DNA of 64,000 nucleotides from Beijerinckiaceae bacterium RH AL1 (GCA_901457705.2 LR590083.2:2976597-3040596), one strand, 5' to 3'; counted from the first letter of the stretch, positions 27,356 through 59,260 are shown. Numbers and translations: made by a program. The notes: generated from the letters alone by a model not told the origin.

Positions 27356-28113
27356 CGCGCCATCTCCGCCCGCGTCGTGTCGACCGTCAGCGCCCGGAAG
27401 GCGTCGGCGAGCTGGCCGGACTTCGCGCCGGCGGCGATCTCCTCGGACCGGCCCTGGCTGACGATCGCGCCGTTGTTCAGGACGTAGACGCCGTCGGTCG
27501 CCTCGATCTCGTCGAAGATGTGCGTCGCCCACAGCACCGAGAGCCCGTCCTCGCGCACGAGGTCGCGCACGATGCGCACGATGTCGGCGCGCGACGCGAG
27601 ATCGAGCCCGACGGTGGCCTCGTCGAGCAGCAGCAGGCGCGGCCCGTGCACCAGCGAGCGCGCGATCTCGATGCGGCGCGACTGGCCGCCCGACAGCGTG
27701 CGCACCTTGTCCTTGGCGCGATCGGCGAGGCCGACGCGGGCGAGCAGCTCCTCGATGCGCGTGCGCGCCGGCTTGCCGCTCATGCCGTGCAGGCTCGCGT
27801 GGTAGGCGAGGTTCTGGCGCACGGTGAGATCGGAATCGAGCGTCGGCTTCTGGAAGACGACGCCCATCTCGGCGAGCGCGGCGGAGGGCTCGCGCTTCAG
27901 CTCGCGGCCGAAGATGCGCACCTGGCCCTCGCGGGTGTTGTAGAGCCGCGTGATGATCGCAAACAGCGTCGTCTTGCCGGCGCCGTTGGGGCCGAGCAGC
28001 GCCGTGAAGGCGCCGCGCTCGACGCGCAGCGACACGTCCTTCAGCGCCTGGCGCTGGCCGAAGCGGTGCGAGACGTTCGCGACCTCGAGCGCGGGATTGT
28101 CGACCATCATCAT
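27352..28113 (-). CDS. lutE: ABC transporter ATPase, PQQ-alcohol dehydrogenase/lanthanide-associated (LutE/PedB-like)
   Basis: ATP-binding subunit of 253 residues. Walker A is LLGPNGAGKTTLF, the signature LSGGQSRRIEIARSL, Walker B LLLLDEATVGLD and the switch His is in WATHIFDEIE. The start lies in a run of three ATG codons; the first (28113) has GGAAAG just upstream. It partners the ABC-2 permease and the binding protein of this operon. Confidence 0.85.
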   Translation of the reverse strand: MMMVDNPALEVANVSHRFGQRQALKDVSLRVERGAFTALLGPNGAGKTTLFAIITRLYNTREGQVRIFGRELKREPSAALAEMGVVFQKPTLDSDLTVRQNLAYHASLHGMSGKPARTRIEELLARVGLADRAKDKVRTLSGGQSRRIEIARSLVHGPRLLLLDEATVGLDLASRADIVRIVRDLVREDGLSVLWATHIFDEIEATDGVYVLNNGAIVSQGRSEEIAAGAKSGQLADAFRALTVDTTRAEMAR

Positions 28114-28133
28114 GCTTTCCGCGATCCCCGCGC

Positions 28134-29111
28134 TCAGTTCGGCGAGATCGCCACGCCCCAGGGATACGAGCCCACGGGGATCGAGCGCGTCACCTTGAGC
28201 CGGGGCACATCGATGACCGAGACGTCGTTCGAGATGCCGTTGGTCGTCAAGAGGGTCTTGAAGTCCGGCGTGAAGGCCATCTGCCACACCCGCTGCCCGA
28301 CGAGCAGGTACTTCTCGACCTGGAAGGTCTTGGCGTCGACGACCGCGACGTGGTTCGCCGGCCCCAGCGCGACGAAGGCAGTCGTGCCGTCCGGGGTCAG
28401 GCGGATGCCGACGGGCTGGATCGTGTCGGCCGTGATCGAGGGGATGGCGAAGGCGATCGTCGCGAGCACCTTGTGCGTCTTCGTGTCGATGACGGTGACC
28501 TTGCCGCCGACCTCGGACGACACCCAGACCTGCGTCCCGTCCTTGTTGAAGACGGCGATGCGCGGGCGCGACGGCACCAGCACGTTGGCGACGATCTTCT
28601 GCGTCTTCACGTCGATGAAGGTCGCCATGTTGGTCGTCTCGGAGGTGTTGACGATCGTCGAGCCGTCCGGGCTCACGCCCTCCCCCTCCGGCTCGACGCC
28701 GACCGGAATCTGCACGAGCGCCTTGTTCGACGGGATGTCGATGATCGTGACCTCGTTGTCGTCCTCGTTCGAGACGTAGAGCGTCTTGCCGTCCGGGCTG
28801 ATCGCGAAGGTCTCGGGATCGGGGCCGGAGGGCAGCGTGCGGATCTGCTTCATGGTCTTCGGATCGAAGACCTGGATCGTGTCGTCGTCGGACGCGCAGA
28901 CGTAGAGCTCCTTGCCGTCCGGGCTCATGATGATGCCGCGCGGGCGGCGGCCGACGTCGACGGTGCGCGTCACCTTATAGGTGTCGAGGTCGATGACGCT
29001 GACCGTGTTGTCCTTCTCGTTGGTGACGTAGGCCGTGAGGGCCTGCGCCGGCACGCTGCCGGCGACGAGAGCGAGGGCGAGAAGGGCGCCGAGCGCCGGG
29101 ACACGCGTCAC
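28134..29111 (-). CDS. lutB: YVTN beta-propeller protein, PQQ-dependent catabolism-associated (LutB/PedA2-like)
   Basis: Exported protein of 325 residues with a signal peptide (about 1-24, ending VPAQA) and seven-bladed YVTN-type repeats. Repeats of the form SPDGKxLYVxxxxDxxVxxxD are visible, such as MSPDGKELYVCASDDDTIQV and ISPDGKTLYVSNEDDNEVTI. It belongs to the propeller type regularly found next to PQQ alcohol dehydrogenase ABC genes. It overlaps the lutA gene by four bases. Confidence 0.82.
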   Translation of the reverse strand: MTRVPALGALLALALVAGSVPAQALTAYVTNEKDNTVSVIDLDTYKVTRTVDVGRRPRGIIMSPDGKELYVCASDDDTIQVFDPKTMKQIRTLPSGPDPETFAISPDGKTLYVSNEDDNEVTIIDIPSNKALVQIPVGVEPEGEGVSPDGSTIVNTSETTNMATFIDVKTQKIVANVLVPSRPRIAVFNKDGTQVWVSSEVGGKVTVIDTKTHKVLATIAFAIPSITADTIQPVGIRLTPDGTTAFVALGPANHVAVVDAKTFQVEKYLLVGQRVWQMAFTPDFKTLLTTNGISNDVSVIDVPRLKVTRSIPVGSYPWGVAISPN

Positions 29112-30421
29112 GATTTATCTCCGGAAGGACTTTTGCAGCCGGTCTCGGGCTTGTCGAAGCCGAGCGACTCGAGGGGGCTGACGGGATGAAGGAAGCCGGG
29201 CTCTGGGGCGACCGACACCAGCATCTTCGGCTGCACGAGCAGGATCGGCTGCGACAGCTGCCGGTCCCAGGGGCGGAAGTGCACCGGCACGCCCTTGAAG
29301 GCGGCGATGTCGAAATCGGGGCGCATCGCATAGTCGGCGATGGTGTGGGGGTCGGCGCTCTTCGAGCGGGTCGCCGCCTCGCCGATGACGCGGATCGCCA
29401 CCCACGCCTGGTAGTCGAGCGGGCGCATCGGCCGCTTGTTGGTGCGCACGAAGCGGCTCTGCAGCTGTGCCGAGCCCCACGAATCCAGCACGCGCGACCA
29501 GGTCGCCGGCACCAGCCCCTGGGTGCCCGTGACCAGCAGCGGCTCGGACGTGTGGTACTGGATGTAGTCGCCGAAGTTGCCGGCCTCGTCGGCGACGACG
29601 ATCACGTCGGCGCCGGTGCCGCGGGTGAAGACCAGCGCCGCCGCCTGCACCGGGCCGTCGGCGCGGGCACGCGCAAGGTCGCCGTATTCCCAGACCTTGT
29701 CGCCGACGATCCTGGCGCCGAATTTCTTGGCCGAGCGGCGCACGGCCTCGGCGTAGAGCTGGTCCTCGGGGTTCTTGCCGACGACGAGGAAGATCTTCGG
29801 CCACTTCGAGTAGATCAGGAACTGCACCAGCGCGTCGGTCAGCATCGCGCGCGAAGGCGCGACATCGTAGACGTTGGCGCGGCAGTCCGCATTGCGCAGC
29901 GTGTCGTCCTCGGACTGGATCGAGTAGAGCGCCGCCGGCGAATCCTTCAGGGCGTCCGAGACCTCGAGCAGGTCCTTCGTCGGCAGGTCGGCGACGATCA
30001 GCCCCTCGCCTTTCGCAACCAGCGCCTTCGCGGCATCGACCGCCGACTCGCCCCTGGCGAGGATGTGCTCGTCGAGCGTAAAATTCTGGCCGGTGAGGCG
30101 GCCGGTCGTCGTCATGTCGCGCATGGCGATCTTGGCGCCGGCGATCCCGACATCGGCCGGATCGTCCTCGTAATCGTAGACCGGCGGCGCCGGGCGGCGG
30201 AAGCCGAGATAGGCGATCTTGATGTCCTGCGCGGCGCCTGGCGCCGGCATGCCGGGCGCGGCGGTCGGCGGGCTGCCGGTCGGCGCCTGGGCGACGGCTG
30301 GGCTGAGGACGGGAAGGGCGAGGATCGCAGACGACAGAAGCGCAGCGCGCGCCAGCACGGGGAGGCGTGACGACAAGATCTTCCTCAGCGGTTCCTCGAT
30401 GCCGCGCGGGGGCCGCGACAC
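29108..30421 (-). CDS. lutA: Periplasmic binding protein, PQQ-alcohol dehydrogenase/lanthanide-associated (LutA/PedA1-like)
   Basis: Exported binding protein of 437 residues, related to branched-chain amino acid type receptors. The signal peptide is about 18-45 (ending PAVAQA), then a Pro-rich linker and the binding domain from DIKIAYLGFRRPAPPVYDYE. Conserved stretches include GRLTGQNFTLDEHILARGE and CRANVYDVAPSRAMLTDALV. In Methylobacterium and P. putida the equivalent is needed for growth at low lanthanide. The start is a GTG at 30421. It is the first gene of a ten-gene minus-strand run. Confidence 0.8.
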   Translation of the reverse strand: MSRPPRGIEEPLRKILSSRLPVLARAALLSSAILALPVLSPAVAQAPTGSPPTAAPGMPAPGAAQDIKIAYLGFRRPAPPVYDYEDDPADVGIAGAKIAMRDMTTTGRLTGQNFTLDEHILARGESAVDAAKALVAKGEGLIVADLPTKDLLEVSDALKDSPAALYSIQSEDDTLRNADCRANVYDVAPSRAMLTDALVQFLIYSKWPKIFLVVGKNPEDQLYAEAVRRSAKKFGARIVGDKVWEYGDLARARADGPVQAAALVFTRGTGADVIVVADEAGNFGDYIQYHTSEPLLVTGTQGLVPATWSRVLDSWGSAQLQSRFVRTNKRPMRPLDYQAWVAIRVIGEAATRSKSADPHTIADYAMRPDFDIAAFKGVPVHFRPWDRQLSQPILLVQPKMLVSVAPEPGFLHPVSPLESLGFDKPETGCKSPSGDKS

Positions 30422-42359: not shown

Positions 42360-42449
42360 ATGAGCTGGGTCGCACCCGTCATCGAGGAAATCTGCGTCGG
42401 CATGGAAGTCACGAGCTACGACTCGGCCGACCTCGACGTCCTGTTCTGA
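42360..42449 (+). CDS. pqqA: PQQ precursor peptide PqqA
   Basis: A 29-residue peptide, ending in DVLF, from which pyrroloquinoline quinone is built. The Glu16 and Tyr20 that are cross-linked and excised are present in the conserved core GMEVTSYDSAD. The ribosome binding site AAGGAG lies seven bases upstream. It heads pqqABCDE; pqqF-type protease genes were not seen in the window. Confidence 0.95.
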   Translation: MSWVAPVIEEICVGMEVTSYDSADLDVLF

Positions 42450-42481: not shown

Positions 42482-43380
42482 GTGAAGGCTGTCATCCTCG
42501 GATCGGCGGCGGGCGGCGGCGTTCCCCAGTGGAACTGCCGCTGTGCCGTCTGCGAGCTGGCCCGCGCGGGCGATCCGCGCGTGCCCCGCGCACGCAGTCG
42601 TCGATCGCCGTCACGGCCGACGACGAGCACTGGCTGCTCGTCAACGCCTCGCCGGACATGCGCCAGCAGATCGCGGCCACGCCGGCGCTCTATCCGCGCC
42701 ACGGCGCGCGCCATTCGCCGATCGCCGCGGTGCTGCTGACGAATGGCGACGTCGACCATGTCGCCGGCCTGCTGACGCTGCGAGAGAGCCAGCCGTTCAA
42801 GCTGTTCGCCACGGACGCGACGCGCGAGTCGGTCGATGCCAACCGCATCTTCTCGGTCGCCAATCCGACGTTCGTGCCCCGCATCACGGTGGCGATGGAC
42901 GAGCCCTTCGAGCCGGTGCCGGGGCTCAAGGTCGAGATGTTCGCGGTGCCGGGCAAGGTCCCGCTTTGGCTCGAGGACGAGACGCTGAAGATCGGCGAGG
43001 CGACCGAGACGACGGTCGGGCTCGACATCTCGGCGGACGGCCGCCGCCTGCTCTACATCCCCGGCTGCGCCGAGGTGACGCAGGCGGTGAAGGCACGCGT
43101 CGCCGGCGCCGACGTTTTGCTCTTCGACGGCACGCTGTGGACCGACAACGAGATGATCGAGGCGGGCCTCGGCGTCAAATCAGCGCGGCGGATGGGGCAC
43201 GTCCCCATGTCCGGGCCCGGCGGCTCCCTCGAAAGTCTGGCGGACGTTGGGGTCTCCCGGCGCGTATTCGTCCACATCAACAACACCAACCCGGTCCTCG
43301 TGTCGGACTCGAGCGAGCGGGACCAAGCAGAAACCTCCGGCTGGGAGGTCGGCTACGACGGGATGAGGATCGACCTATGA
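42482..43380 (+). pseudogene. pqqB: PqqB, frameshifted
   Basis: MBL-fold protein of PQQ biosynthesis that hydroxylates the Tyr of the cross-linked intermediate. The GTG start opens with KAVILGSAAGGGVPQWNC and the Cys pair of NCRCAVCE. One base is missing near 42589, where CCCCGCGCACG should have an extra C; the frame then runs from TQSSIAVTADDEHWLLVNAS to 43380. Later motifs are NGDVDHVAGLL and HVPMSGPGGS. Corrected length is 299 residues, full size. Since pqqACDE are intact, a sequence error is the simpler explanation. Confidence 0.88.
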
Positions 43381-44120
43381 AGGAAGTTTTGTCGCCGGAA
43401 GAGCTCGAGAAGCAGCTGCGCGCGATCGGCGCCAGCCAGTATCACAACCTGCATCCGTTCCATAAGCTGCTGCACGGCGGCAAGCTCAACCGCGAGCAGG
43501 TGCAGGCCTGGGCGCTGAACCGCTTCTATTACCAGGCGATGATCCCCATCAAGGACGCGACCATCCTGTCGCGCATGGAGGATCCGGAGCTGCGCCGCAT
43601 CTGGCGCCAGCGCATCGTCGACCATGACGGCGAGAACGCCGGCGACGGCGGTATCGAGCGCTGGCTGATGCTGACCGACGGCCTCGGCTTCGAGCGCGAC
43701 TACGTCACCTCGCTGCAGGGCCTGCTGCCGGGCACGCGCTTCGCGGTCGACGCCTACGTGCATTTCGTGCGCGAGAAGCCGATGCTGGAGGCGATCGCCT
43801 CGTCGCTGACCGAGCTGTTCTCGCCCAACATCATCTCCGAGCGCGTCTCGGGCATGCTGAAGAACTACGACTTCATCTCGGAGAAGACGCTGGCCTATTT
43901 CGGCAAGCGCCTGACCCAGGCGCCGCGCGACGCGGACTTCGCGTTGGCCTACGTGAAGGAGCACGCCCGCACCGGCAAGGAGCAGGCGGCCGTGTGCAAC
44001 GCGCTGCGCTTCAAGTGCAGCGTGCTGTGGACGCAGCTCGACGCGCTGCAGCACGCCTATGTCGAGGACGGCGCCATGATCCCGCCGGGCGCTTGGCGGC
44101 CCGGGCACGCGGTCTCGTGA
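43377..44120 (+). CDS. pqqC: Pyrroloquinoline-quinone synthase PqqC
   Basis: Cofactorless oxidase doing the last ring closure and eight-electron oxidation of PQQ, 247 residues. It is all helical, with ASQYHNLHPFHKLLHGGKL, QAWALNRFYYQAMIPIKDA and QRIVDHDGENAGDGGIERW, and the active-site His and Arg of the family. It overlaps pqqB by ATGA. It is separate from PqqD, not fused as in Methylobacterium extorquens. Confidence 0.95.
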   Translation: MKEVLSPEELEKQLRAIGASQYHNLHPFHKLLHGGKLNREQVQAWALNRFYYQAMIPIKDATILSRMEDPELRRIWRQRIVDHDGENAGDGGIERWLMLTDGLGFERDYVTSLQGLLPGTRFAVDAYVHFVREKPMLEAIASSLTELFSPNIISERVSGMLKNYDFISEKTLAYFGKRLTQAPRDADFALAYVKEHARTGKEQAAVCNALRFKCSVLWTQLDALQHAYVEDGAMIPPGAWRPGHAVS

Positions 44121-44130
44121 GCTTGCCCGC

Positions 44131-44412
44131 ATGAGCGAAGTGTCCGGCACGAGCATCCCCAAGCTGCCGCGCGGCGTGCGCCTGCATTTCGATCAGGTGC
44201 GCCAGGCGCATGTGCTGCTCGCGCCGGAGCGGGCGTTCAACGTCGACGGCAACGCCGTCGCCGTTCTCCAGCTTGTCGACGGCACGCGCTCCGTCGACGA
44301 CATCGCCGGCGTGCTGGCCGAGAAATACGCGGCGGACAAATCGGTCATCGCGCGCGATATAGGGAAGATGATCGACGATCTGATCGCAAAGCGCGTGATG
44401 GAGGCGGCATGA
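44131..44412 (+). CDS. pqqD: PQQ biosynthesis peptide chaperone PqqD
   Basis: A 93-residue RiPP recognition element that binds PqqA and presents it to PqqE. Typical sequence is [20 protein letters not shown] followed by [20 protein letters not shown]. It overlaps pqqE by ATGA. Confidence 0.93.
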
Positions 44413-45542
44413 CGTCTTCCGGCCTGACGATACCCAATCCCATCGGCGTGCTGATGGAGCTGACGCACCGCTGCCCGCTGCGGTGCCCCTACTGCTCGAA
44501 CCCGCTCGAGCTCGACAAGCGCTCGGCCGAGATGGACACGGCGACCGTGCTTCGCGTGCTGGAGGAGGCGGCGACGCTCGGCGTGCTGCACGTGCACCTC
44601 TCCGGCGGCGAGCCGACGGCGCGCCAGGACATCGTCGAGATCACGGCGAAATGCGCCGAGGTCGGGCTCTACTCCAACCTGATCACCTCTGGCGTCGGCC
44701 GTGCGCTGACCGTGCTGCCGGCGCTCGCCGACGCGGGGCTCGACCACGTGCAGCTCTCGCTGCAGGGCATCGACGTCGCCTCGGCCGACAAGGTCGCGGG
44801 CCTGCGCGGCTCGCACGACACCAAGATGAAGTTCGCCGCCGAGGTCGCGCGGCTCGGGCTGGCGCTGACGGTGAACGCGGTGATCCACCGCGGCAACATC
44901 GACCAGGTCGAGGGCTTCATCGAGCTGGCGCAGCAGCTCGGCGCGCGGCGGCTCGAGATCGCCCACACGCAGTACTACGGCTGGGCCTACACCAATCGCG
45001 CCGCGCTGATGCCGGCGCGTCCCGACGTCGACAAGTCGATTGGCATCGTCGAGGCGGCGCGCAAGCGGCTCTCCGGCACGCTGGTCATCGACCTCGTCGT
45101 GCCGGACTACTACGCGCTGCGCCCAAAGGCCTGCGCCGGCGGCTGGGGCCGCAAGCTGATGAACGTCGCGCCCTCCGGCAAGGTGCTCCCCTGCCACGCG
45201 GCGGAATCGATCTCGAACCTCGAGTTCTGGAACGTGAAGGACCATTCGCTCGGCGACATCTGGCGCCGCTCGCCGGCCTTCAACGCCTATCGCGGCACGG
45301 ACTGGATGCCGGAGCTGTGCCGGACCTGCGAGCGCAAGGAGATCGACTGGGGCGGATGCCGCTGCCAGGCGCTCGCGCTCGTCGGCGATGCGGCCGAGAC
45401 GGACCCCGCCTGCGGCAAGTCGCCGTTCCACGCCAAGATCGAAGCCTTGGCGACGCAGGAGGCGGCAACCGACGCGCCGCCCAATTACGTATATCGCGGC
45501 CCGGGCCAGTCGGCGCCGCGGCAGGTCGAGGAGATTTCGTGA
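44409..45542 (+). CDS. pqqE: Radical SAM PqqA peptide cyclase PqqE
   Basis: Radical SAM/SPASM enzyme joining Glu and Tyr of PqqA, 377 residues. The SAM cluster motif is [12 protein letters not shown] (CxxxCxxC). The C-terminal SPASM region has Cys in [33 protein letters not shown] and DPACGKSP. Its stop overlaps a GTG start of the next gene (GTGA). Confidence 0.95.
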
Positions 45543-46637: not shown

Positions 46638-47609
46638 CTACTGGTTCGTCGGCGCCGGCCCGGGCATCTGGAAGCCCTTCGGCACCGGCTTCGACCGCTC
46701 GCCGGCCTGCGGGGCCGGCGCGTCGCCACCGGTCGCCGCCGGCTCGATCTTCGGCGCGGCCTCGCTCGTCGCGGTGGCCGGCGGGATCAGATGGCCGAGG
46801 TTGTCGATCAGCGGAACGTTGTAGTCGGCGAGCACACGGTTGATGTCGGCCTTGCGCTTGCGCAGGACGCCTTCGAGCGTGTGCTTCCATTCGTTCTCGT
46901 CGTGGCGCACGCCGAGCGCGATTCGGTAGCTGTAGCCCGGACGGTCGACATCCTTCAGAAGCGGCGTCATGACGAGCGCGCCGTCCGACGTCTTCACCGA
47001 CTCGCCGATGAGCGGGCCCCAGACCACCACCGCATCCGTCACCTTGGCCTTGAGATCGGCCAGCATCGCATCGAGCGGTGAATTGAAGCGGTGATCGACG
47101 AGCAGCGGATAGAGCTTGGCCTGGCCGAGTGTGCCGTTCTTCAGCATCGCGTCCGTCGGCGGCGTCGCCTCGAACACGCCGATCTTGTGGCCCTTGAGCT
47201 TCGGATCGTCGATCGACTGCACGTCGGCGAGCGGGCTGCCCTTCGGCACGACGATGACGTAGGTCGAGCGATAATACGGGTTCGTCGCCTGCACCATCTC
47301 GGCGCCGATCGTGTAGCCCATCACCACGTCGCAGAGGTCTTCGTTCAGCGTGTTGCGCACGAAGCCGGGGCCGGACGGCGCCCAGAAGTAGCGCACCGGC
47401 CGCTTCAGCGAGTCGGCGATGATGTCGGCGATCTTGTTCTCGAAGCCGTCCTTCTTGCGCGTGCTGAAGGGCGGATTGGCCGGATCCTCGCAGACGCGGA
47501 AGGCGGTGCGCGACACGAGGTCGGGGACGTTCTGCGCCATGGCCGGGGGCGACGCGAGCGCCGAGGCAAGAACCGCAGCCGCGGTAATCGCCGTCCTCGA
47601 GATCGTCAT
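46638..47609 (-). CDS. xoxJ: Periplasmic binding-type protein XoxJ (MoxJ family)
   Basis: Exported protein of 323 residues that partners XoxF, related to extracellular solute-binding proteins. The signal peptide ends PPAMAQ. Conserved parts are TAFRVCEDPANPPFSTRKKD, GPGFVRNTLNEDLCDVVMGY and DAVVVWGPLIGESV. The C-terminus is Pro/Ala-rich. The XoxJ family is thought to help activate the dehydrogenase. The ATG at 47609 is chosen for the signal peptide; in-frame codons continue to 47684. Confidence 0.85.
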   Translation of the reverse strand: MTISRTAITAAAVLASALASPPAMAQNVPDLVSRTAFRVCEDPANPPFSTRKKDGFENKIADIIADSLKRPVRYFWAPSGPGFVRNTLNEDLCDVVMGYTIGAEMVQATNPYYRSTYVIVVPKGSPLADVQSIDDPKLKGHKIGVFEATPPTDAMLKNGTLGQAKLYPLLVDHRFNSPLDAMLADLKAKVTDAVVVWGPLIGESVKTSDGALVMTPLLKDVDRPGYSYRIALGVRHDENEWKHTLEGVLRKRKADINRVLADYNVPLIDNLGHLIPPATATSEAAPKIEPAATGGDAPAPQAGERSKPVPKGFQMPGPAPTNQ

Positions 47610-47655
47610 CGCGCCTACCCGTTTCGGAAAGCTCGGCACCGGCGATCTCCTCGCG

Positions 47656-47671
47656 GAACGGACGTCCGTTC
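47656..47671. promoter_or_regulatory. Perfect 16-bp palindrome upstream of xoxJ
   Basis: GAACGGACGTCCGTTC, two 8-bp arms without a gap, centred about 54 bases upstream of the xoxJ start. The form fits a dimeric repressor or activator site. No regulator can be named. Confidence 0.45.
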
Positions 47672-47711
47672 GGCTGCAAACCATTGTCCTACGAGATCCA
47701 ACGGCAAAGGT

Positions 47712-47793: not shown

Positions 47794-48195
47794 CTACTTC
47801 TCGGTCTTCGGGAACTGCGCGCTGGCGACGCTGTCCTTGGTCAGCGGCTTGTCGCCGGCCGGGACGTTGTTCTTCTTCAAGATCCAGGCGAGGATCGGAT
47901 AGAGATTGTCGTCGGTGAGCGACTTCGGCGCATTCTGAGGCATGTTCTCGTAGACGAAGTCGCGCAGGTCCTTCACCGGCTTGCCGGCGAACATGGCCTG
48001 GAACTTGGAATCGTGAAGGTTCGGGCCCAGTGCGCCGTCGAGCTTCGGCCCGTGGCACTGCGCGCAATTGTTGTTGAACTTGACGTGGCCGTCCTCGGCC
48101 TGCGCCTCGGTGTAGGGACCGCTGTCGGCCCGCGCGACACCGGCAGCGCCGGCCAAACCGAGTCCGAGTGCGATCATAAACCCGACAGCACGCAT
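47794..48195 (-). CDS. xoxG: Cytochrome c XoxG, electron acceptor of XoxF
   Basis: Small class I c-type cytochrome of 133 residues that takes electrons from the lanthanide methanol dehydrogenase. The signal peptide ends GVARA. The heme site is C44-A-Q-C-H48 and the likely Met ligand is M85 in YENMPQNAP. Its place between xoxF and xoxJ gives the standard xoxFGJ order. Confidence 0.88.
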   Translation of the reverse strand: MRAVGFMIALGLGLAGAAGVARADSGPYTEAQAEDGHVKFNNNCAQCHGPKLDGALGPNLHDSKFQAMFAGKPVKDLRDFVYENMPQNAPKSLTDDNLYPILAWILKKNNVPAGDKPLTKDSVASAQFPKTEK

Positions 48196-48405
48196 GGCAG
48201 CATTTCCTCGCTTTTGCAGCCGGCTCTCTTCGGCCGGCCTTTGTTGGCACGCCAACCCAATCGCGGCCTGACGCTGACCCGGCCTTTTATGCCGGTCTCG
48301 CCACTCGATGGCAATCGCCAGCGTGGTCGCAGGGGCGCCTTTTGTGGTGAAATTCCAATTGCTTCCGATCGAAATTCCTTTGCCGGCCGGGAGGTGGCGG
48401 CAAGG

Positions 48406-48462: not shown

Positions 48463-50295
48463 TTAGCTGTTCGGCAGGGTGAACACCGTGAGGGTGCCGC
48501 CGAGCGCGGTGTAGTTGTTGAGGGCGGCGTAGCCACCGACGGCGCCGAGGCCGGCGTTCGGGTCGGTCAGGCCAGCGGCGAGACCGATACCGGCCCAACC
48601 ACCGACGCCCGAGTAGACCGCGACGTACTGCTTGCCCTTGTGCTCGTAGGTCATCACGTTGCCGATGATGCCCGACGGGGTCTTGAACTTGTAGAGCTCC
48701 TTACCCGTCTTGGCGTCGATCGCCTTCAGATAACCCTCGAGCGTGCCGTAGAAGACCACGTCGCCGGCCGTCGCAAGCGCACCGCCCCAGGCGGAGAACT
48801 GCTCGGGATCCGACCACACGATCTTACCCTTGGTGGCGTCCCACGCGATGAAGTTACCCATGTTGGTGCCACCGGGCGCCGGGTACATCGAGAGGGTCGC
48901 GCCGACGTAGGGCTGACCGGGGGTGTAGGACACCTTGAACGGCTCGTAGTCCATGCAGACGTGGTTGGTCGGCACGTAGAACAGGCCGGTCTTGGGCGAG
49001 AAGGCCGAAGGCTGCTCGTCCTTGGAGCCGAGAGCCGCCGGGCAGATGCCCTTCGAGTTGTTGTCCTCGCCGTTGTGCTCGGTCGAGTACTTGGCGACGA
49101 CCTGCGGGCGGCCGTAGTTCGGCGACGACTTGTCCATGTCGACGCCCGACGTCCAGTTCACGGCCGGATCGTACTTCTGGGCAACGAGCAGCTCGCCCGT
49201 CTCGCGGTTCAGCGTGTAGCCGAGACCGTTACGGTCGAAGTGGACCAGCATCGGCGTCTCTTTGCCGTTGATCTTCTGGTTCACCAGCGGCATTTCGTTG
49301 ATGCCGTCGTAGTCCCACTCGTCGTGCGGGGTCATCTGGTAGACCCACTTGGCCATGCCGGTGTCCGGGTTACGGGCCCAGATCGTCATCGACCACTTGT
49401 TGTCGCCCGGCCGCTGCTTCGGGTTCCAGGTCGAGGGGTTGCCCGAGCCGTAGTAGAACAGGTTCAGCTTCGGGTCGTACGAGTACCAGCCCCAGGTGCA
49501 GCCGCCGCCGGTCTTCCACTGATCGCCTTCCCAGGTCTTCAGCGAGGAGTCCTTGCCGACGGGCTTGCCGAGCGAGGTGGTCTTCTCCGGGTCGACCATG
49601 ATCTGGTCGTCCGGGCCTTCCGAGAAGGCGCGCCACACGCGCTTGCCGGTGTTCTCGTCGTAGGCGGTCACGTGGCACTGCACGCCGAACTCGCCGCCGG
49701 AGATGCCGACGATGACCTTGCCGTTGACCGGGAGAACGGTCGCGGTGTTGGTCTCACCCTTCTTGGGATCGCCGTTCTGAACCTTCCAGAGCTCCTTGCC
49801 GGACTTGGCGTCGAGCGCGACGACGTTGGTGTCGGCCTGGTGCAGGAAGATCTTGCCGTTGTCGTAGGCGAGACCGCGGTTGACGGTGTCGCAGCACATG
49901 ACCGGGATGACCGCCGGGTCCTGCTTCGGCGTGTAGCGCCACAGGATCTTGCCGTCGTTGTTGAGGTCGAGCGCGTAGACGATGTTCGGGAACGGCGTGT
50001 GGACGTACATCACGTCGCCGATCACCAGCGGGGCGCCCTCGTGGCCGCGCAGGACACCCGTCGAGAAGGTCCAGGCAACCTGGAGATTCTTGACGTTCTT
50101 GGTGTTGATCTGCTCGAGCTTCGAGTAGGCGGTGTTGGCGTAGTCACCGCGCTGGGCAGCCCAATCGTTGGGGTTCTGCATCAGCTTGGAGAGCGCGGGA
50201 CCAGTGACGCTGCTCGGCGCGGCGTCATCGGCCATTACCGGGAGCGAATAAGACAGAAGACAGGCAGTGGCGACAGCCAAGCCGAAATGTTTCAT
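48463..50295 (-). CDS. xoxF: Lanthanide-dependent methanol dehydrogenase XoxF
   Basis: Periplasmic PQQ quinoprotein oxidising methanol, 610 residues with a signal peptide ending PVMA. The eight-bladed propeller shows the W-motif repeats, the vicinal disulfide Cys134-Cys135 ([11 protein letters not shown]), and metal ligands at Glu202 (SGGEFGV) and Asn286 (GSGNPSTW). The catalytic Asp328 and the extra lanthanide ligand Asp330 lie in HDEWDYDG; calcium-type MxaF has Ala at the second position. The ATG at 50295 follows GGAGGAAG. No mxaF or mxaI gene is in the window. Confidence 0.96.
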
Positions 50296-50692: not shown

Positions 50693-51448
50693 TCAGGAAG
50701 GGGTCTGACCCGTCTTCCCACGATCGTGAGGCCCCAAACCAAACAGCCGGTCGCGCTCGGCGGCGAGCCAGGCGGCGTCCCGGCTGGATCGGGGCACGGC
50801 ATAATTCAAGGTCTCTATCACCCGGGTCGGACGCGGGGCCAGGACGTGGATCGTATCGCTGAAGATCAGCGCCTCGTCGGAACTATGCGTGACCATTAAT
50901 ACTGTCGCCCGCCGCGCGGCGACCGCATCGAAAACGGTCGTGCGCAAGGCAGTCGCACTCGATTCGTCCAGCGAGACGAAGGCCTCGTCGAGGACGAGCA
51001 GGTCGGGGTCGACGGCGAGGCCCCGCGCCAGGGCGACACGCCGCTGCATGCCGAGCGAGAGCTGGTTCGGCCGATGGTTGCGCCAGGCCAGGAGGCCGAG
51101 TTCGTCCAAAAGCGCGTCGAGCGCGGCCGGCGCGAGGCGCGGTGCGGCGAGCGTCACGTTCTCGGCCACCGTCCGCCAGGGCAGGAGCCGCGGGTCCTGG
51201 AACACGACGCCGAGATGCAGCGAGCCGGGCGCAGGCTCGATGCGCCCCTCGAACTCGGGATCGAGCCCCATGACGATGCGCAGCGCCGTCGTCTTGCCGC
51301 AGCCCGATGGCCCGAAGAGGCAGGTGACCTCCCCCCGCGCCAGCGTGAAGGCGAGGCCGTCGATGATCTCGAGAAGCCCCGAGCCGCGCCCGCGCGTCTT
51401 GCGGGCGATCGTCACATCAAGAAGCGGCGAGCCGCCAGCGTCGGGCAT
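50693..51448 (-). CDS. NitT/TauT/SsuB-type ABC transporter ATPase
   Basis: ATP-binding subunit of 251 residues. Walker A is FGPSGCGKTTALRI, Q-loop VVFQDPRLLPWRTVAENV, signature LSLGMQRRVALARGL (LSLGM instead of LSGGQ, as in many SsuB/TauB proteins), Walker B LLVLDEAFVSLD and the switch His MVTHSSDEAL. It overlaps the permease gene by 32 bases. It lies directly upstream of xoxF in the same direction. Confidence 0.85.
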   Translation of the reverse strand: MPDAGGSPLLDVTIARKTRGRGSGLLEIIDGLAFTLARGEVTCLFGPSGCGKTTALRIVMGLDPEFEGRIEPAPGSLHLGVVFQDPRLLPWRTVAENVTLAAPRLAPAALDALLDELGLLAWRNHRPNQLSLGMQRRVALARGLAVDPDLLVLDEAFVSLDESSATALRTTVFDAVAARRATVLMVTHSSDEALIFSDTIHVLAPRPTRVIETLNYAVPRSSRDAAWLAAERDRLFGLGPHDRGKTGQTPS

Positions 51449-52178
51449 GATTGTCGAGCGGTTGCAGGATGAGGAGCTCGACCGCCAGCATGACGAACGA
51501 GAAGGCGACGCTGTAGCCGATGATCTCCTTGATGGCGAACACGCTGAAGTAGCGCGAGATCGCAAAGCCGACGCCGTTGGAGAGTCCGAAGAACTCGACC
51601 ACCAGCACGATCTTCCAGACGATGCCGATGCCGGAGCGCGTCGCCGCGATGACGAAGGGCATCGCCTGCGGCAGCCAGATCTGCCGGAACCTCGTGAGCA
51701 GCGAGAAGCGGTAGATCACGCCGATGTCGTCGAGGCCGGGATCGAAGGAGCGGACGCCGTCGCGCAGGATGATGGTGTTGTTAGGGAACTTCGAGAGGAA
51801 GACGGCGAGGATCGCCGAGGCGTCGTTGAGGCCGAACCAGATGTAGCAGAGCGCGGCGATCACCAGCACCGGCGTGTTCATGAGCACGAGCACCCAGGGC
51901 ATGAAAGCTTCGTCGGCGGCCTGCGAGCGGCCGAACAGGAAGCCGAGCCCGCAGCCGATCGCCATGGCGACGAAGAAGGCGACGCCGGCGCGCCACAGCG
52001 TCATGGCGATGTTGAAGAGCATGTCGCCGTGGACGAGATCGGTGCCGATGAAGCCGAGCACGGCCCACGGCGTCGGCAGGTTGCGCGGCTGCAGCAGGCC
52101 GGCGACGAGCCCCCACAGCACGACGAAGCCGGCGATCGAGAGGATGAAGCGGAAGCCGCGCCCGACGCTGCCGTTCAA
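51417..52178 (-). CDS. NitT/TauT/SsuC-type ABC transporter permease
   Basis: BPD_transp_1 membrane subunit of 253 residues with about six helices. The coupling EAA-like loop is around IGVIYRFSLLTRFRQIWLPQ, followed by AMPFVIAATRSGIGIVWKIV. The start is a TTG at 52178 overlapping the stop of the binding protein gene (TTGA). Substrate unknown. Confidence 0.82.
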   Translation of the reverse strand: MNGSVGRGFRFILSIAGFVVLWGLVAGLLQPRNLPTPWAVLGFIGTDLVHGDMLFNIAMTLWRAGVAFFVAMAIGCGLGFLFGRSQAADEAFMPWVLVLMNTPVLVIAALCYIWFGLNDASAILAVFLSKFPNNTIILRDGVRSFDPGLDDIGVIYRFSLLTRFRQIWLPQAMPFVIAATRSGIGIVWKIVLVVEFFGLSNGVGFAISRYFSVFAIKEIIGYSVAFSFVMLAVELLILQPLDNHARRWRLAAS

Positions 52179-53191
52179 TTCAGGGCCGCCGCATCGACGT
52201 AGAGATCGGCCGGCAGGCTCGTCGCCTCGCCGACGAGCGCGGCTCCGCCGAGCCCGGCGACGACGGCGAAGAAGGCTTGCGCATCCGCGATCTCGGCCGC
52301 GCGCGGCTTCGTCGGGACGCCGCGGAGATAGGCGGCCTTCAGCGCCTGAAAGGTCGCCTCGTCGGGGGCCCGCATCAGCGGCCGCAGGGGATCCCACGCT
52401 TTCGGCTCGTTCGCCAGGAGGTCGTTGGCCCGGCGGACCGCCTTCGCGAAGCCGGCGCGCGTTGCCGGCGACGTCTCGGGATGCAGCAGGAAGCCGCCGA
52501 TCGCCACGCGCCCCGGGGCGCCGAGCCTGGCGACGATCGATTCGGTGTCGAGCACGCGGCGGAAGCCCTTGGCCTCGAGCCGCGCGGCGTCGCTCCAGTA
52601 GAGAAGCCCGCAGTCGAGCTCGCCGGCGTCGACCTTGGCCGCGAGCAGCGGCGGCGCGCCGAAGGCCGGCCGCGCGTCCTTGGCGAGATCGAGCCTGGCG
52701 CTCTTCTGCGCATCGGCGCGCAGGATCAGCCAGTTCTTGTCGAGCGGGCCGCCGGAGACGCCGATCGACTTGCCCTTGAGATCGCCGACGTCGCGGATCG
52801 TCGAGGTGGGCTTCGCGATAAGAGCGCCCTCGGTCGAGGAGAACGGCAGGAACTGCAGCGGCCTGCCCTCGGCCTTCAGCCGCGCGGCGAAGAAGATGTC
52901 GTTGACGATCGTGTCGACCGAGCCGCCGAGGAAGGCGATGCGCGCCGCCTCGCTCGAGGCGAGCAGCGTGGGGGCGACCGCAAAGCCCTGCGCGGTGTCG
53001 AAGCCGTTGCGGCGGATCGTCTCCATCACCCAGTGGACGGTGCCGAAGGCGAGCGTGCCGACCTTGAAGGAGGTCGCCGGCGCCTCCGCGCGCGCCCGGG
53101 CAGTGGCGGCGAGCGCCGCGGCGCCAGCCATGACGGCGCGCCGGGACACGCTGGCCCGGCGACCGGGAGAATGGCTGATCAGGACGGGCAA
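52175..53191 (-). CDS. NitT/TauT/SsuA-type binding protein, second paralogue
   Basis: Periplasmic binding protein of 338 residues with a twin-arginine-like signal (VSRRAVMAGAAALAA). The binding domain opens FKVGTLAFGTVHWVMETIRR and includes KSIGVSGGPLDKNWL, ARPAFGAPPLLAAK, GELDCGLLYWSDAARLEAKG and a final SLPADLYVDAA. Well over half its residues match the upstream paralogue, including long identical nucleotide stretches at the 3' end. Two binding proteins for one permease and ATPase suggest two related ligands. Linkage to xoxF hints at methylotrophy, but no ligand can be assigned. Confidence 0.8.
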   Translation of the reverse strand: MPVLISHSPGRRASVSRRAVMAGAAALAATARARAEAPATSFKVGTLAFGTVHWVMETIRRNGFDTAQGFAVAPTLLASSEAARIAFLGGSVDTIVNDIFFAARLKAEGRPLQFLPFSSTEGALIAKPTSTIRDVGDLKGKSIGVSGGPLDKNWLILRADAQKSARLDLAKDARPAFGAPPLLAAKVDAGELDCGLLYWSDAARLEAKGFRRVLDTESIVARLGAPGRVAIGGFLLHPETSPATRAGFAKAVRRANDLLANEPKAWDPLRPLMRAPDEATFQALKAAYLRGVPTKPRAAEIADAQAFFAVVAGLGGAALVGEATSLPADLYVDAAALN

Positions 53192-53275
53192 GCTAGCTGG
53201 GCCTCGCGACGCGGCACTTCGCCGGTCGGCTTATAGGCCGGAAGGTGACGACGGCCCAGCCCCACATCCGCGTGA

Positions 53276-54277
53276 TCAGCCGTAGACGGCGGCGTCCACA
53301 TAAAGGTCGGCCGGCAGGCTCGTCGCCTCGCCGACGAGCGCCGCGCCGCCGAGCTTGGCGACGATCGCGAAGAAGGCCTGCGCATCGGCGATCTCCTCCG
53401 CCCGCGGCTTTTTCGGAATGCCGCGGAGGTAGGCGCTCTTCAAGGCTTCGAAGGTGGCGTCGTCCGGCGCCTGCATCATCGGGCGCAGCGCCTCCCAGGC
53501 CTGCGGGTCTTTCTGCAGCACGTCCTCCGCGGCGCGCACCGCCTTGCCGAAGGCGACGAGCGTCGCGGTCTCGACGCCCGGCCGCACCAGGAAGCCGACC
53601 AGCGCGACCTTGCCTTTGGCGCCGAGCGTGTCGGCGATCTGCTCGACGCCCGCCACGCGGCGGAAGCCCTTGGCCTCGAGCCGGGCGCAGGCGCTCCAGT
53701 AGAGCAGCCCGCAGTCGAGCTCGCCGCTCTCCAGCTTGGCGGCGAGCAGCGGCGGCGCGCCGAAGGCGGGGCGCGCGGCCTTCTGCAGGTCGATGCCCTG
53801 CCGCTGCGCCTCGGCGCGCAGCAGGAGCCAGCTCTTGTCGAGCGGGCCGCCGGCGACGCCGATCGACTTGCCGGCGAGATCGGCCACCGACTTGATCGGC
53901 GAGCCGGCCGCGACCATCAGCGCGCCCTCGGTCGTCGAGTAGGGCAAGTACTGCAGCCCCTTGCCCTCGGCCTTGAGGCGCGCTGCGAACAGGAGGTCCG
54001 AGATGATGGCGTCGACGGAGCCCGACAGGAAGGCGATGCGCGCGGCATCGTTGGTGGCGAGCGGCACCGCCTGCACCTTGAGACCCGCCGCCGTGTCGAG
54101 CCCATGATCGGTGATCGTCTTCATCTCCCAGTCGCCCGTCCCGAAGGCGAGCAGGCCGACACGGAACGGAGCGGCCGCGCGGGCCGCCGCCAGCGGCACG
54201 GCCGCGAGCGCGGCTGCGCCGGCCAGGACCGTGCGGCGGGACAAGCGGGATGATGGGCCGGGATGAAGGGGGGACAT
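53276..54277 (-). CDS. NitT/TauT/SsuA-type binding protein, first paralogue
   Basis: Binding protein of 333 residues with a Tat-type signal (LSRRTVLAGAAALAA). It has the same blocks as its paralogue: FRVGLLAFGTGDWEMKTITD, KSIGVAGGPLDKSWLLLRAE, ARPAFGAPPLLAAK and SGELDCGLLYWSACARLEAK. It is the first gene of the four-gene transporter operon. Tat export would mean it folds in the cytoplasm, unusual for a plain anion receptor. Confidence 0.8.
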   Translation of the reverse strand: MSPLHPGPSSRLSRRTVLAGAAALAAVPLAAARAAAPFRVGLLAFGTGDWEMKTITDHGLDTAAGLKVQAVPLATNDAARIAFLSGSVDAIISDLLFAARLKAEGKGLQYLPYSTTEGALMVAAGSPIKSVADLAGKSIGVAGGPLDKSWLLLRAEAQRQGIDLQKAARPAFGAPPLLAAKLESGELDCGLLYWSACARLEAKGFRRVAGVEQIADTLGAKGKVALVGFLVRPGVETATLVAFGKAVRAAEDVLQKDPQAWEALRPMMQAPDDATFEALKSAYLRGIPKKPRAEEIADAQAFFAIVAKLGGAALVGEATSLPADLYVDAAVYG

Positions 54278-54774: not shown

Positions 54775-55482
54775 TTAACGAGACCCGGCGGCCTGCGCCG
54801 CCAGCGGCCGCCGCTGCACCCCGGCCTCATCGAAGTTCTCCGGCGCGAGCCACGCCTCGAAGGCGCCGGCGATGCGCGGCCAGTCGCGATCGATGATGGC
54901 GTACCAGGCGGTGTCGCGGTTGCGGCCTTTTGTGACGACGGCCTGCCGAAAGATGCCCTCGAAGGTGAAGCCGTAGCGCAGCGCGGCGCGGCGCGAGGGC
55001 GCGTTGAGGCTGTCGCACTTCCACTCGAAGCGGCGGTAGCCGAGCGCAAAGGCGCGGCGCATGAACAGGAAGATCGCTTCCGTGCCGGCCCGCGTCCGCT
55101 TGAGCGCGGGCGCGAAGTTGATGTGCCCGACCTCGATGACGCCGTTGCCGGGATCGATCCGCATCAGCGCCGCCATGCCGACGGCGCGGCCGCCGGCGCC
55201 GTCGACGACCGCGAAATGCAGGGGGTCGCGCGATAGCGCCTGCGCCGCGACGAGCGCGCGCAGGCCGTCGACGTCGGCGGGGCGCTCGAGCGGCAGGTAG
55301 GTCCAGTCGCGCGCGTCGGGCGCCGCGGCATAGGCCGAAAAGAGGTCGGCGCCGTGGCGGACGGCATCGAGCGGCTCGAGGCGGCAGTAGCGCCCGACGA
55401 TCGCCTCGCGCGGCGGCGGCGGCGGCGGCGTCCAGCCGGCGAGCGGCTCGCCGATCTCCTGGCCGTAGGGATCGCGCGCCAT
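54775..55482 (-). CDS. GNAT-family N-acetyltransferase
   Basis: A 235-residue acetyltransferase of the RimJ/RimL type. It has YCRLEPLDAVRHGADLFSAY, the acetyl-CoA site around KRTRAGTEAIFLFMRRAF and WKCDSLNAPSRRAALRYGF with GIFRQAVVTKGRNRDTAWYA after it. Its ATG overlaps the heme oxygenase stop (TGATG), so they are cotranscribed. Substrate unknown. Confidence 0.82.
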   Translation of the reverse strand: MARDPYGQEIGEPLAGWTPPPPPPREAIVGRYCRLEPLDAVRHGADLFSAYAAAPDARDWTYLPLERPADVDGLRALVAAQALSRDPLHFAVVDGAGGRAVGMAALMRIDPGNGVIEVGHINFAPALKRTRAGTEAIFLFMRRAFALGYRRFEWKCDSLNAPSRRAALRYGFTFEGIFRQAVVTKGRNRDTAWYAIIDRDWPRIAGAFEAWLAPENFDEAGVQRRPLAAQAAGSR

Positions 55483-56174
55483 CAGCCGGCGACCGCGCGC
55501 TGCACGGCCTCGGACACCGCGATGTTGTGGCGGAAGGCGGCGATCGCCTCGGCGACGATCCGGTCCGCCGTCGCGGACGCGACGGGCACCGTGTCGAGCG
55601 CCGCGCGCATCGCGAGTCTGGTCTCGGCGGGATCGGCGAGTGCCGGGAAGTCGTAGAAGCCGAGCGCCTCCGGCCCGAGGCCGAGGTTGCGCGCGAGGAC
55701 GGGCTTCAGGATCTGCCCGCCGCTGAGGTCGCCGAGATATCTCGCATAGGCATGCGCCGCGAGCGCCGGGACATCGTCGCGGGCATCGGCGATGGCGGCA
55801 CCGTAGGCCGCGGCCTGCGGCAACACGGCGCAGCGGGTCGCCCAGTCAGGGCCTGCGAGCGCGGCGAGGTCGCGCGTCAATGCCGGCAGGCGGGCGAGGC
55901 CGGGCGCCGCGAAGGCCGCGACGAGCGGCGAGTCGGGGGCCTGCGCCAACGCGGCCTCGAGCGCGGCATAGGCGGGGACGAGGCTGCGCAGGAACAGCAC
56001 GTAGCTGTCCCGCGTCGCGCGGTTGCGGATGAGATCGGCGATGACCCCGGCCCGTTCGGCCTCGCGATGCACGGCCGCCGTCTCGTCGCGCAGGCGGCCG
56101 GCGAAGCCGCCGGCGGGCTCGGTGGAGGAAGACGTGGTGGAGGAAGACGCGTCGTCGATGTGGGTGAGGGTCAT
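55482..56174 (-). CDS. Heme oxygenase
   Basis: Heme-degrading enzyme giving biliverdin, 230 residues, HmuO/BphO class. A Ser/Thr-rich N-terminus precedes LRDETAAVHREAERAG, which holds the proximal His, and the distal helix HAYARYLGDLSGGQIL has the Gly-rich segment. The ATG at 56174 fits the family. Next to a photosynthesis operon, it may supply biliverdin for a bacteriophytochrome, though none is in the window; iron recycling is the alternative. Confidence 0.82.
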   Translation of the reverse strand: MTLTHIDDASSSTTSSSTEPAGGFAGRLRDETAAVHREAERAGVIADLIRNRATRDSYVLFLRSLVPAYAALEAALAQAPDSPLVAAFAAPGLARLPALTRDLAALAGPDWATRCAVLPQAAAYGAAIADARDDVPALAAHAYARYLGDLSGGQILKPVLARNLGLGPEALGFYDFPALADPAETRLAMRAALDTVPVASATADRIVAEAIAAFRHNIAVSEAVQRAVAG

Positions 56175-56237
56175 TGGGCTCCGGCCGGCGTGCAGCCGGT
56201 GACGGATACGCGGCGCGGGCGGAGCCGTAAAGCACAC

Positions 56238-56277
56238 GCAAGAAGGGCCCCGGTCAAACGACCGAGGCCCTGCTTGC
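56238..56277 (-). terminator. Strong hairpin at the end of the puf operon
   Basis: On the minus strand GCAAG, GGGCC, CGGTC, loop GTTT, GACCG, GGCCC and CTTGC form a long stem 15 bases after the pufC stop. No long T-run follows. It would end or protect the puf message. Confidence 0.65.
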
Positions 56278-56292
56278 GACGTGCTTGTCCTG

Positions 56293-57402
56293 CTACTTGC
56301 CCGGCTCCGGCGCGGCGGGTGCCGCAGGGGCGGGCGCAGGGGCGGCAGGCGCAGGGGCCGCCGCCGGTGCCGGCGTGCCGGCGCCAGCGCTCGAGGCGTC
56401 CGCCGTGGTTTCCAGCTCCTGGAACTTCTCGGCGATCTTGGCGCCGAGCAGCGGCTTGTAGGCGCCCTGGTGGCAGGTCATGCAGTTCACCTTGGCGACG
56501 TCGCCCTCAGGCCCGAGCCGGTACTTCGGGAACGTGTCGTGCAGGCTCCCGAGGTAGTTGATGTTGATGTCGCGTGCCATCCGAATGCCGTACCAGGCGG
56601 TGACCCGCTGCGGCGAGCTCTGCGCCCACGACGCGAAGGCGCGCGAGTTGTGGCAGAAGGTGCAGTTGACGCCGAGCGCGTTCGAGAAGGCCATCATCAG
56701 CGAGTAGGTGTACTCGGCCGACTGGATGCCCTGCTTGTTCTCGCCCGTCGGCAGCGCCGCGCTGGAGTTGACGCGGATGTTGGCCGCGTTGGCGAGGAAC
56801 GGCGTGTACGGGTTCTCCGGCAGCGAGCTGTCGGCGGCCGCCACCGACACCGTGCCGAAGCGCGAGTTCGGCGACGACCTGGTGTCGAACCAAACGTAGC
56901 TCGGCACCGGCTGGCCGCGATGGCAGGTGTAGCAGACGACGCCGGTCTGGCCGACGTGGTCCTTCCAGTCGACGTTGATGTGGCGCGTCATCTGCAGCAT
57001 GCGGCGGGCGACGCGCTTGGTGTAGAGGTCGTCGGACGCGAAGTTGCCGTTGGCGCCGTGGCAGTAGGCGCAGCTTTGCGTCGGCGCGACCCAAGCCGCC
57101 ATCGAGGCCATGATGCGGCCGAACTCGGCGACGTCGACGTCGCCCAGCACCTTGAGGTTCTTGTAGACCGTCGACGACTTGGTGCCGACCGGCGAGGACG
57201 CCGGGATGATGGCCGGCACCTTGTTGGAGGCTTCCGCCGCGGTGATCTCGGCGCGGTGGTAGACGAGATCCATGCCCGTGCCGCGATAGCCGTGCTGGAT
57301 GCTCTCCGTCCGCGGCGCCTGGAAGGTGCCGAAGACGACGAAGACGAAGGCGACGGCGACGACGGTGAGACCGATGATCGTGCCGATTCCGAGCTTTTTC
57401 AT
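56293..57402 (-). CDS. pufC: Reaction centre tetraheme cytochrome c subunit PufC
   Basis: Periplasmic cytochrome that re-reduces the special pair, 369 residues. Four heme sites are CAYCH, CYTCH, CTFCH and CMTCH. The N-terminal helix (about 5-28) looks like an uncleaved membrane anchor; there is no lipobox Cys. The last 35 residues are an Ala/Pro tail after the usual end of the family. It starts two bases after the pufM stop and is the last gene of the operon. Confidence 0.95.
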   Translation of the reverse strand: MKKLGIGTIIGLTVVAVAFVFVVFGTFQAPRTESIQHGYRGTGMDLVYHRAEITAAEASNKVPAIIPASSPVGTKSSTVYKNLKVLGDVDVAEFGRIMASMAAWVAPTQSCAYCHGANGNFASDDLYTKRVARRMLQMTRHINVDWKDHVGQTGVVCYTCHRGQPVPSYVWFDTRSSPNSRFGTVSVAAADSSLPENPYTPFLANAANIRVNSSAALPTGENKQGIQSAEYTYSLMMAFSNALGVNCTFCHNSRAFASWAQSSPQRVTAWYGIRMARDININYLGSLHDTFPKYRLGPEGDVAKVNCMTCHQGAYKPLLGAKIAEKFQELETTADASSAGAGTPAPAAAPAPAAPAPAPAAPAAPEPGK

Positions 57403-57403
57403 C

Positions 57404-58384
57404 TCACTGCACTCCCGCTTTCAACGCCGGGTCGACCACCACCGGGCCGACCTGCGGGTAGTGTGGCGCCACACCGTGCTTGACCGCCCAGAGGTACCAG
57501 TTGTCGACCGCCGTGCCGGTGAGCAGGATGCCGATGCCGCCGACGAGCGGGGTGAGCACCGCGAACCACCACGCCCAGCGATGGATCGATTCCATCGTGG
57601 CGTTGAAGCCCATCGTCCAGCGCCAGAACAGCGCCGCGCGCTCCGAGGCCGTGCCGCGGTCGACGATCTGCTCGATCTCGCGCTCGCCGCCGAGGCGGGA
57701 GACCGCGAGGATCGTCGCGCCGTGCATGGCGAAGAGCAGCGTCGATCCGTAGAGGAAGGCGATCGAGAGCATGTGGAAGGGGTTGTAGAAGAGGTTGCCG
57801 TAGCGCAGCGAGAAGGCCGCGGTCCAGTCGAGATGCGGGAAGATGCCGAAGGGCACCGCCTCGCCCCAGTTGCCCATCAGCAGCGGCCGGATGAAGCCGA
57901 GCACCAGGAACAGCCAGATCGCCGAGAGAAACGCCCACGCGGCGTGCGTGCCCATGCCGAGCGCCTGCGCGCGGCGATAGATGCGCAGCCACCAGAGCAG
58001 CACGGAGGTCGTGAGGAAGAAGCCGGCGATCTGCCACCAGCCGCCCTGGTCGAGCGGGCAGATCATGCAGAGGCCTGCCGAGGCCGGCGGCGGCTCGAGC
58101 TTGAGCCAGAAGAGCTGGCGGATGAACTGGACCGGGTTCCAGTTCACCGAGGCCCACATGTTGAGGCCGATGATCTCGAAGGCGAGCACGCCGCAGATGA
58201 TCGAGGCGGTGCCGAGGAAGCCGAGGTAGACCGGCCCGACCTGCGCGTCGCCGATGACGCCGGCCCAGTAGCTGAAGAACGGCTTGCCGAGGCGATCGCG
58301 GTTCTCGACGGGGCTCAGCGGGATGCCCTCGTAGAGCGGGCCGCGGACCTGAACCTGGGTGAAGATATTCTGGTACTCAGGCAT
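57404..58384 (-). CDS. pufM: Photosynthetic reaction centre M subunit
   Basis: Core membrane subunit of the type II reaction centre, 326 residues, five helices. It opens [20 protein letters not shown] and has the special-pair ligand region [19 protein letters not shown], the quinone/iron region [20 protein letters not shown] and [15 protein letters not shown]. It starts ten bases after pufL. Confidence 0.97.
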
Positions 58385-58394
58385 GTCGCTCTCC

Positions 58395-59219
58395 TCAGCG
58401 CCAGATCGGCAGGTTAAGCCACCAGTTCCACCATTCCGGCCAGCCCTTCGACCAGAACGGCCCGGAGATGATGATGCAGACGGCACTCCAGAAGCCCGCC
58501 GACAGCGCCAGGAACAGGCCGAGGCGGTGGATGCCGATCGTGCCGATCGACCATCCGATGTAGTCGCGGAACACCGTGTTCTCGTGCTCCGGCGTCTTCA
58601 CGCGCTGGCCCTTCTGCGGGTTGGTCGCGGAGAGGACCAGCGAGCCGTGCAGCGACAGCGCGAGCGTGGTGGCGAAGAAGAAGGTGATCGCCAGCATGTG
58701 CGCGGGATTGTAGTGGAAGTGGAGGTACTGGTAGCCGGTGTTCGACACCCAATCGAGGTGCGACAGGATCCCGTAGGGGAAGCCGAAGCCCCAGGCGCCG
58801 AGCAGGATCGGTCGTATGACCTCCAACGACACGTAGGCGAAGATCGCGACCGCGAAGGCGAACGGCACGTGCAGGCCGATGCCGAGCTTGCGGCAGATCT
58901 CGACCTCGCGGAGCGCCCAGGAGCCGAAGGCGCCGATCGCGCAGATGGTGATGAGCTGCCACAGCCCGCCTTCCTTCAGCGGCGCGAGCGCCAGGCCGTA
59001 GGAGATGTCGGGTGGCGCGATCGAGATCTGCCAGACGTTCCAGGTCGGTCCGAGCGCGGCGCCGTAGATGATGAGCGCCGTGCCGACGAAGGAAAAGAAG
59101 ATCGTCGTAACCCCGAAGAAGCCGACGAAGAACGGTCCGACCCAGAAGTCGAAGAGCTCGCCGCCAATGAGCGTACCACCGGGGACACGGTATTTTCGCT
59201 CGAAAGATAGCATCGCCAT
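58395..59219 (-). CDS. pufL: Photosynthetic reaction centre L subunit
   Basis: Reaction centre L subunit, 274 residues. It opens [20 protein letters not shown], with the ligand region [20 protein letters not shown] and the QB-site region [20 protein letters not shown]. The ATG at 59219 gives the standard N-terminus. Confidence 0.97.
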
Positions 59220-59260
59220 GATCAGAAACCTCCCGCGCGTCACCGTCTGTCGTTATCGAG

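Follow-up and report, generated by a model that had tools for sequence, protein, structure and literature searches.

PqqT of Methylorubrum extorquens is a periplasmic PQQ binder with a Kd of 50 nM (PMC12124388; PMC12828617). Both PqqT and its K142D variant bind La3+ via PQQ, and K142 is the residue that was mutated in a published artificial enzyme (PMC12828617). The titles of PDB entries 9b1u, 9b1v and 9ooz describe PqqT with PQQ, PqqT with PQQ and Gd3+, and PqqT Y161W with PQQ. In the available parts of the literature on PqqT we found no tests of the permease and ATPase, and a literature search for xoxF together with NitT found nothing.

Here, we analysed a stretch of 64,000 nucleotides from Beijerinckiaceae bacterium RH AL1 (GCA_901457705.2 LR590083.2:2976597-3040596; hereafter the window), in which an ABC transporter with two related receptors precedes the methanol dehydrogenase gene xoxF. 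The original prediction, made from the sequence, knew of no described system of this form. This did not hold, as PqqT is published and as Methylobacterium and Methylorubrum commonly have a form with one receptor next to xoxF; because the receptors in the window are relatives of PqqT, the system is largely known already. We propose, with a probability of about 0.85, that the locus encodes a PqqT-type PQQ uptake system beside the PQQ-dependent XoxF, in which the receptor gene has been duplicated in this lineage.

Gene content and order of the locus

The predicted layout, two related receptors with one permease and one ATPase ahead of xoxF, is present in the window, and the predicted boundaries were exact, with all transporter ORFs on the minus strand between 54277 and 50693. 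Receptor 1 (53276–54277, minus strand; 333 aa) is a PqqT-type binding protein of predicted periplasmic location and the slow-evolving copy, while receptor 2 (52175–53191, minus strand; 338 aa, TTG start) is its tandem duplicate and the fast-evolving copy; the two are 66% identical in an end-to-end alignment. The permease (51417–52178, minus strand; 253 aa) matched PF00528 (1.6e-19) and fell under every Ssu, Nrt and Tau equivalog cut-off, and its TTG start overlaps the receptor 2 stop. The ATPase (50693–51448, minus strand; 251 aa), the start of which overlaps the permease end, matched PF00005 (9.5e-26) and fell under every NCBIfam equivalog cut-off shown. Both subunits are kept beside PqqT homologues in other genomes.

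Transcription on the minus strand runs from receptor 1 through receptor 2, permease and ATPase to xoxF, a c-type cytochrome and xoxJ, with a gap of 397 bp between the ATPase and xoxF. XoxF (48463–50295, minus strand) is a PQQ methanol dehydrogenase (TIGR03075, 1.6e-230; 766 bits vs. a cut-off of 480) with a WDYD motif, the mark of lanthanide-type forms. The xoxJ gene (46638–47684, minus strand) matched TIGR03871 above its cut-off (1.4e-82). The cytochrome between them (47794–48255, minus strand; PF13442, 1.3e-9) is an uncertain candidate for XoxG, as it scored 31 bits against a cut-off of 147.8 for the MoxG model and as papers on RH AL1, in the parts available, assign XoxG elsewhere (RHAL1_02256). 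Genes for PQQ biosynthesis also lie within the window, convergent with the xoxF-xoxJ group, and comprise pqqA (42360–42449, plus strand), encoding a precursor peptide of 29 aa with an ExxxY motif, and pqqB, pqqC and pqqE (42529–45542, plus strand; TIGR02108, TIGR02111 and TIGR02109, each above cut-off). The host genome encodes two full-length PQQ alcohol dehydrogenases and one that is more divergent.

Just upstream of the transporter (55482–59243, minus strand) are a predicted heme-oxygenase-like gene and putative genes of a photosynthetic reaction centre, for its cytochrome, M and L subunits. Matches in scans for promoters and terminators did not exceed the number expected by chance, and the four transporter genes go unnamed in the available parts of the RNA-seq papers on Beijerinckiaceae bacterium RH AL1.

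Homology of the receptors to PqqT

Judged from their sequences, both receptors are full-length homologues of PqqT. A search of solved structures matched them to M. extorquens PqqT over their mature length (receptor 1, phmmer E 1.4e-93 and 53% identity to 9b1u; receptor 2, E 5e-87 and 51% identity), and in a family tree they fell beside other Beijerinckiaceae in a supported 63-row group with PqqT (95/84). The fold agrees: an AlphaFold2 model of receptor 2 (mean pLDDT 89) had 9b1v, 9ooz and 9b1u as its top three PDB matches, with E values of ~1e-36 and TM scores of 0.91–0.92 over the target (0.91 to 9b1v), and the next match was at 2e-14.

Residues characteristic of PqqT were kept in both copies. 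K142, which is invariant in the family, corresponds to K148 in receptor 1 and K152 in receptor 2, in each case within a GGPLDK loop; K142 is here taken in full-length numbering as the lysine of the GGxLDK loop, the only reading that fits because residue 142 of the crystal chain is alanine. The tyrosine of the LLYW motif (Y161 in 9ooz chain numbering) is likewise kept as Y193 in receptor 1 and Y198 in receptor 2. The PqqT clade has 103 columns with conservation of 95% or more, of which receptor 1 retained 94 and receptor 2 retained 87. Changes found in receptor 2 alone included E45 to V55, M115 to I125 and A136 to S146 (PqqT numbering given first); E45 does not vary among 61 clade members, nor does A136 across the family. 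PQQ binding by receptor 2 is less certain because of the loss of these three clade-conserved residues. In the model of receptor 2, V55 sits in the helix that follows the first strand, whereas S146 closes the strand just before the GGxLDK loop; both may line the ligand pocket.

In each receptor a hydrophobic stretch is preceded by an SRR motif (SRRTVLAG in receptor 1; SRRAVMAG in receptor 2), so that the motifs behind the predicted Tat-type signals are present, the Tat assignment itself being a reading of those motifs. RR motifs occurred throughout the PqqT clade, were present in 5 of the 12 other receptors of this class that were sampled, and were absent from many distant PqqT homologues, which have ordinary signals. 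Since it is this widely shared, an RR-type signal says little, and we rejected it as a special clue; the suggestion that a ligand is bound before export gained no specific support from it.

Distribution, neighbourhoods and likely ligand

We surveyed 192 alphaproteobacterial genomes spread across the class and found the receptor in 20, as a single copy in each except the window's own genome. A PQQ alcohol dehydrogenase was present in 18/20 receptor carriers and 25/172 other genomes (Fisher P = 1e-11), and pqqC in 16/20 and 17/172, respectively (P = 4e-11), these P values being indicative only, as related genomes are not independent. The two carriers outside the 18 had a short stretch of PQQ dehydrogenase in one case and pqqC in the other, and pqqC lay 1.2–3.3 kb from the receptor in four surveyed genomes. 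Because the receptor tracks PQQ dehydrogenase and pqqC across the class, with pqqC close by in four genomes, the common factor appears to be PQQ rather than methanol or lanthanides.

Neighbourhoods were compared in 80 loci from other, named genomes. Homologue loci were found by an alignment-based scan of genome contigs; receptor 1 used as a single-sequence query against the contigs gave no match. The order receptor, permease, ATPase was seen in this sample wherever the contig permits. In 33 of the 80 loci a single receptor, permease, ATPase and xoxF followed one another in the same order and orientation as in the window, often with xoxJ, and thus the arrangement recurs and is not due to chance. 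As the 33 include Methylorubrum loci with receptors ~96% identical to PqqT, this is the gene arrangement of the known PqqT system.

The link to xoxF is not strict, however, as many Methylobacterium loci had no xoxF within ~8 kb downstream of the transporter (among them L052, L057–L061 and, from M. nonmethylotrophicum, L103); the recognisable neighbours in two such loci were a sugar transporter and arginyl-tRNA synthetase. The transporter is therefore a separable module, and these loci suggest that the transporter remained in place when xoxF disappeared or moved. Transporters of more distant families often had a Lut/Ped-type ABC cluster, PQQ dehydrogenases or pqq genes nearby. Lut/Ped-type ABC genes were within ~10 kb of PqqT-type transporters at L036, L038, L041–L044, L046, L047, L114–L121, L124, L125 and L127, which hints at a shared region for the supply of PQQ and lanthanides.

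The ligand is most likely PQQ. A tie to PQQ, one of the options raised in the original prediction, is well supported by homology to PqqT, the PQQ-bound crystal structures and the co-occurrence of the family with PQQ genes. It is extremely unlikely that the transporter serves a sulfonate, nitrate, taurine, phosphonate or thiamine-type compound and has no relation to PQQ. The receptors do resemble the SsuA (6e-7), Phosphonate-bd (1.8e-6) and NMT1 (7e-6) models, and the NitT/TauT/SsuA-type label that they had been given is correct at the level of the superfamily, but it fails at the level of the family, where their scores of 18–29 bits fall well short of the cut-offs for the SsuA and TauA models (163 and 304 bits). 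PqqT was vastly closer in sequence and structure searches, the neighbourhoods hold PQQ genes, and no sulfonate, taurine or nitrate genes turned up in the searched ORFs of the window. On the strength of the family cut-offs, the match to PqqT and the gene neighbourhoods, we rejected a transporter for sulfonate, taurine, nitrate or thiamine. Receptors for a lanthanide or lanthanophore that serve XoxF would suit a position adjoining a lanthanide-type xoxF, and the binding of La3+ through PQQ by PqqT and its K142D variant points the same way (PMC12828617). We nevertheless regard this as very unlikely, since the window has a separate ABC cluster of Lut/Ped type, the kind that the literature ties to lanthanides, at 26.5–30.4 kb, and since members of the family also lie at a distance from xoxF, near pqqC and genes for other PQQ enzymes. 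Similarly disfavoured is the other option raised originally, a lanthanide or C1 ligand, as receptors of distant families lie near pqqC or other PQQ dehydrogenases and not only xoxF. The xoxF-adjacent transporter is not itself a Lut/Ped-type importer: family model searches found no Peripla_BP_6 match or beta-propeller partner in it, its ATPase scored 86.6 bits against a TIGR03864 cut-off of 302, and this candidate was rejected because the subunits differ and because the separate cluster is of that kind. That cluster (26507–30421, minus strand) encodes a Peripla_BP_6 receptor, a YNCE-like beta-propeller, an ATPase and an ABC-2 permease, and is accompanied by a two-component system at 22392–24718.

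In the favoured reading, PQQ uptake beside XoxF, the exported receptors would bind PQQ in a two-lobe cleft with the conserved GGPLDK loop (K148/K152) and pass it to the permease-ATPase pair, which would most likely carry it inward; the cell might in this way recover PQQ released by itself or its neighbours, keeping XoxF supplied. We infer the import direction because transporters of this type are receptor-dependent. Against import, PQQ is used in the periplasm, so that inward transport to the cytoplasm has no obvious purpose, and against a need for uptake, the host genome makes its own PQQ. In the available parts of the report of a screen in M. extorquens AM1 for growth on methanol with lanthanum, no PqqT-type transporter is named among the genes hit at least four times (PMC7391723), and for this reason the role of the transporter in a PQQ producer is probably auxiliary. 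The analysis nonetheless turns a transporter of unknown ligand into a concrete, testable PQQ receptor system that is found with PQQ enzymes across Alphaproteobacteria, and raises the question of why PQQ should be carried inward when PQQ enzymes work outside the cytoplasm.

Receptor duplication and comparison with known systems

What is new at the locus is the asymmetric and lineage-specific doubling of its receptor, the remainder being mostly explained by the known family. In a tree of 96 receptors the two window copies paired (94/65), next to a single-copy relative, and the branch of receptor 2 (0.56) was 3.7-fold longer than that of receptor 1 (0.15). No tandem receptor pair was found in the other 93 receptor loci compared. 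Pairwise substitution ratios between the copies were uninformative and were set aside in view of the third-position GC (0.93) and the constraint on synonymous change.

Receptor 1 probably keeps the ancestral PQQ role, and the main uncertainty concerns receptor 2, which may differ in affinity or in the form of PQQ that it binds. There is a real, though less than even, chance that it is decaying or serves only as a redundant copy for dosage, the doubling being without functional meaning; the other loci compared typically have one receptor and the long branch fits relaxed constraint, whereas the intact frame, the RR-type signal, the stop overlapping the permease start and the retention of 87/103 clade-conserved columns speak against this reading. 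Specialisation, with receptor 1 binding PQQ and receptor 2 another form (reduced PQQ, a lanthanide-PQQ complex or a PQQ precursor) at one shared permease, is a possible but somewhat doubtful alternative. It would account for the difference in branch length and for the loss of the clade-invariant E45 and the family-invariant A136, the latter just before the GGxLDK loop, and a metal-bound ligand is conceivable because PqqT crystallises with PQQ and Gd3+. However, receptor 2 keeps K142, the LLYW tyrosine and most near-universal residues, relaxed constraint alone can give a long branch, and substitution ratios are of no help at this GC content. A fuller version, in which PQQ handling is split at one permease such that receptor 1 recovers free PQQ and receptor 2 binds lanthanide-PQQ or reduced PQQ, thereby linking cofactor and metal supply for XoxF, is unlikely. 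The question raised is whether the diverged duplicate distinguishes forms of PQQ, for example with and without lanthanide.

Among described transporters, the SsuABC, TauABC and NrtABCD importers have a receptor, permease and ATPase of the same superfamily as those in the window, but all of the window subunits are far under the curated cut-offs for these systems. PedA1A2BC/LutABEF (TIGR03863/TIGR03864 type) resembles the window transporter in that its ABC genes lie near PQQ dehydrogenases, and in distant families it is often a neighbour of PqqT-type transporters, but its Peripla_BP_6 receptor, beta-propeller partner and ABC-2 permease set it apart. The system most like that in the window is PqqT of Methylorubrum extorquens AM1, with which the receptors share full-length homology (51–53%), the fold as modelled for receptor 2, K142 and the LLYW tyrosine; the RR-type signal is common to close PqqT orthologues and both window receptors, and close relatives of M. 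extorquens have the same gene order ahead of xoxF. PQQ binding has been measured for PqqT only and is predicted by homology for the receptors in the window, and the PqqT system has one receptor, whereas the window has two, the second of which has diverged.
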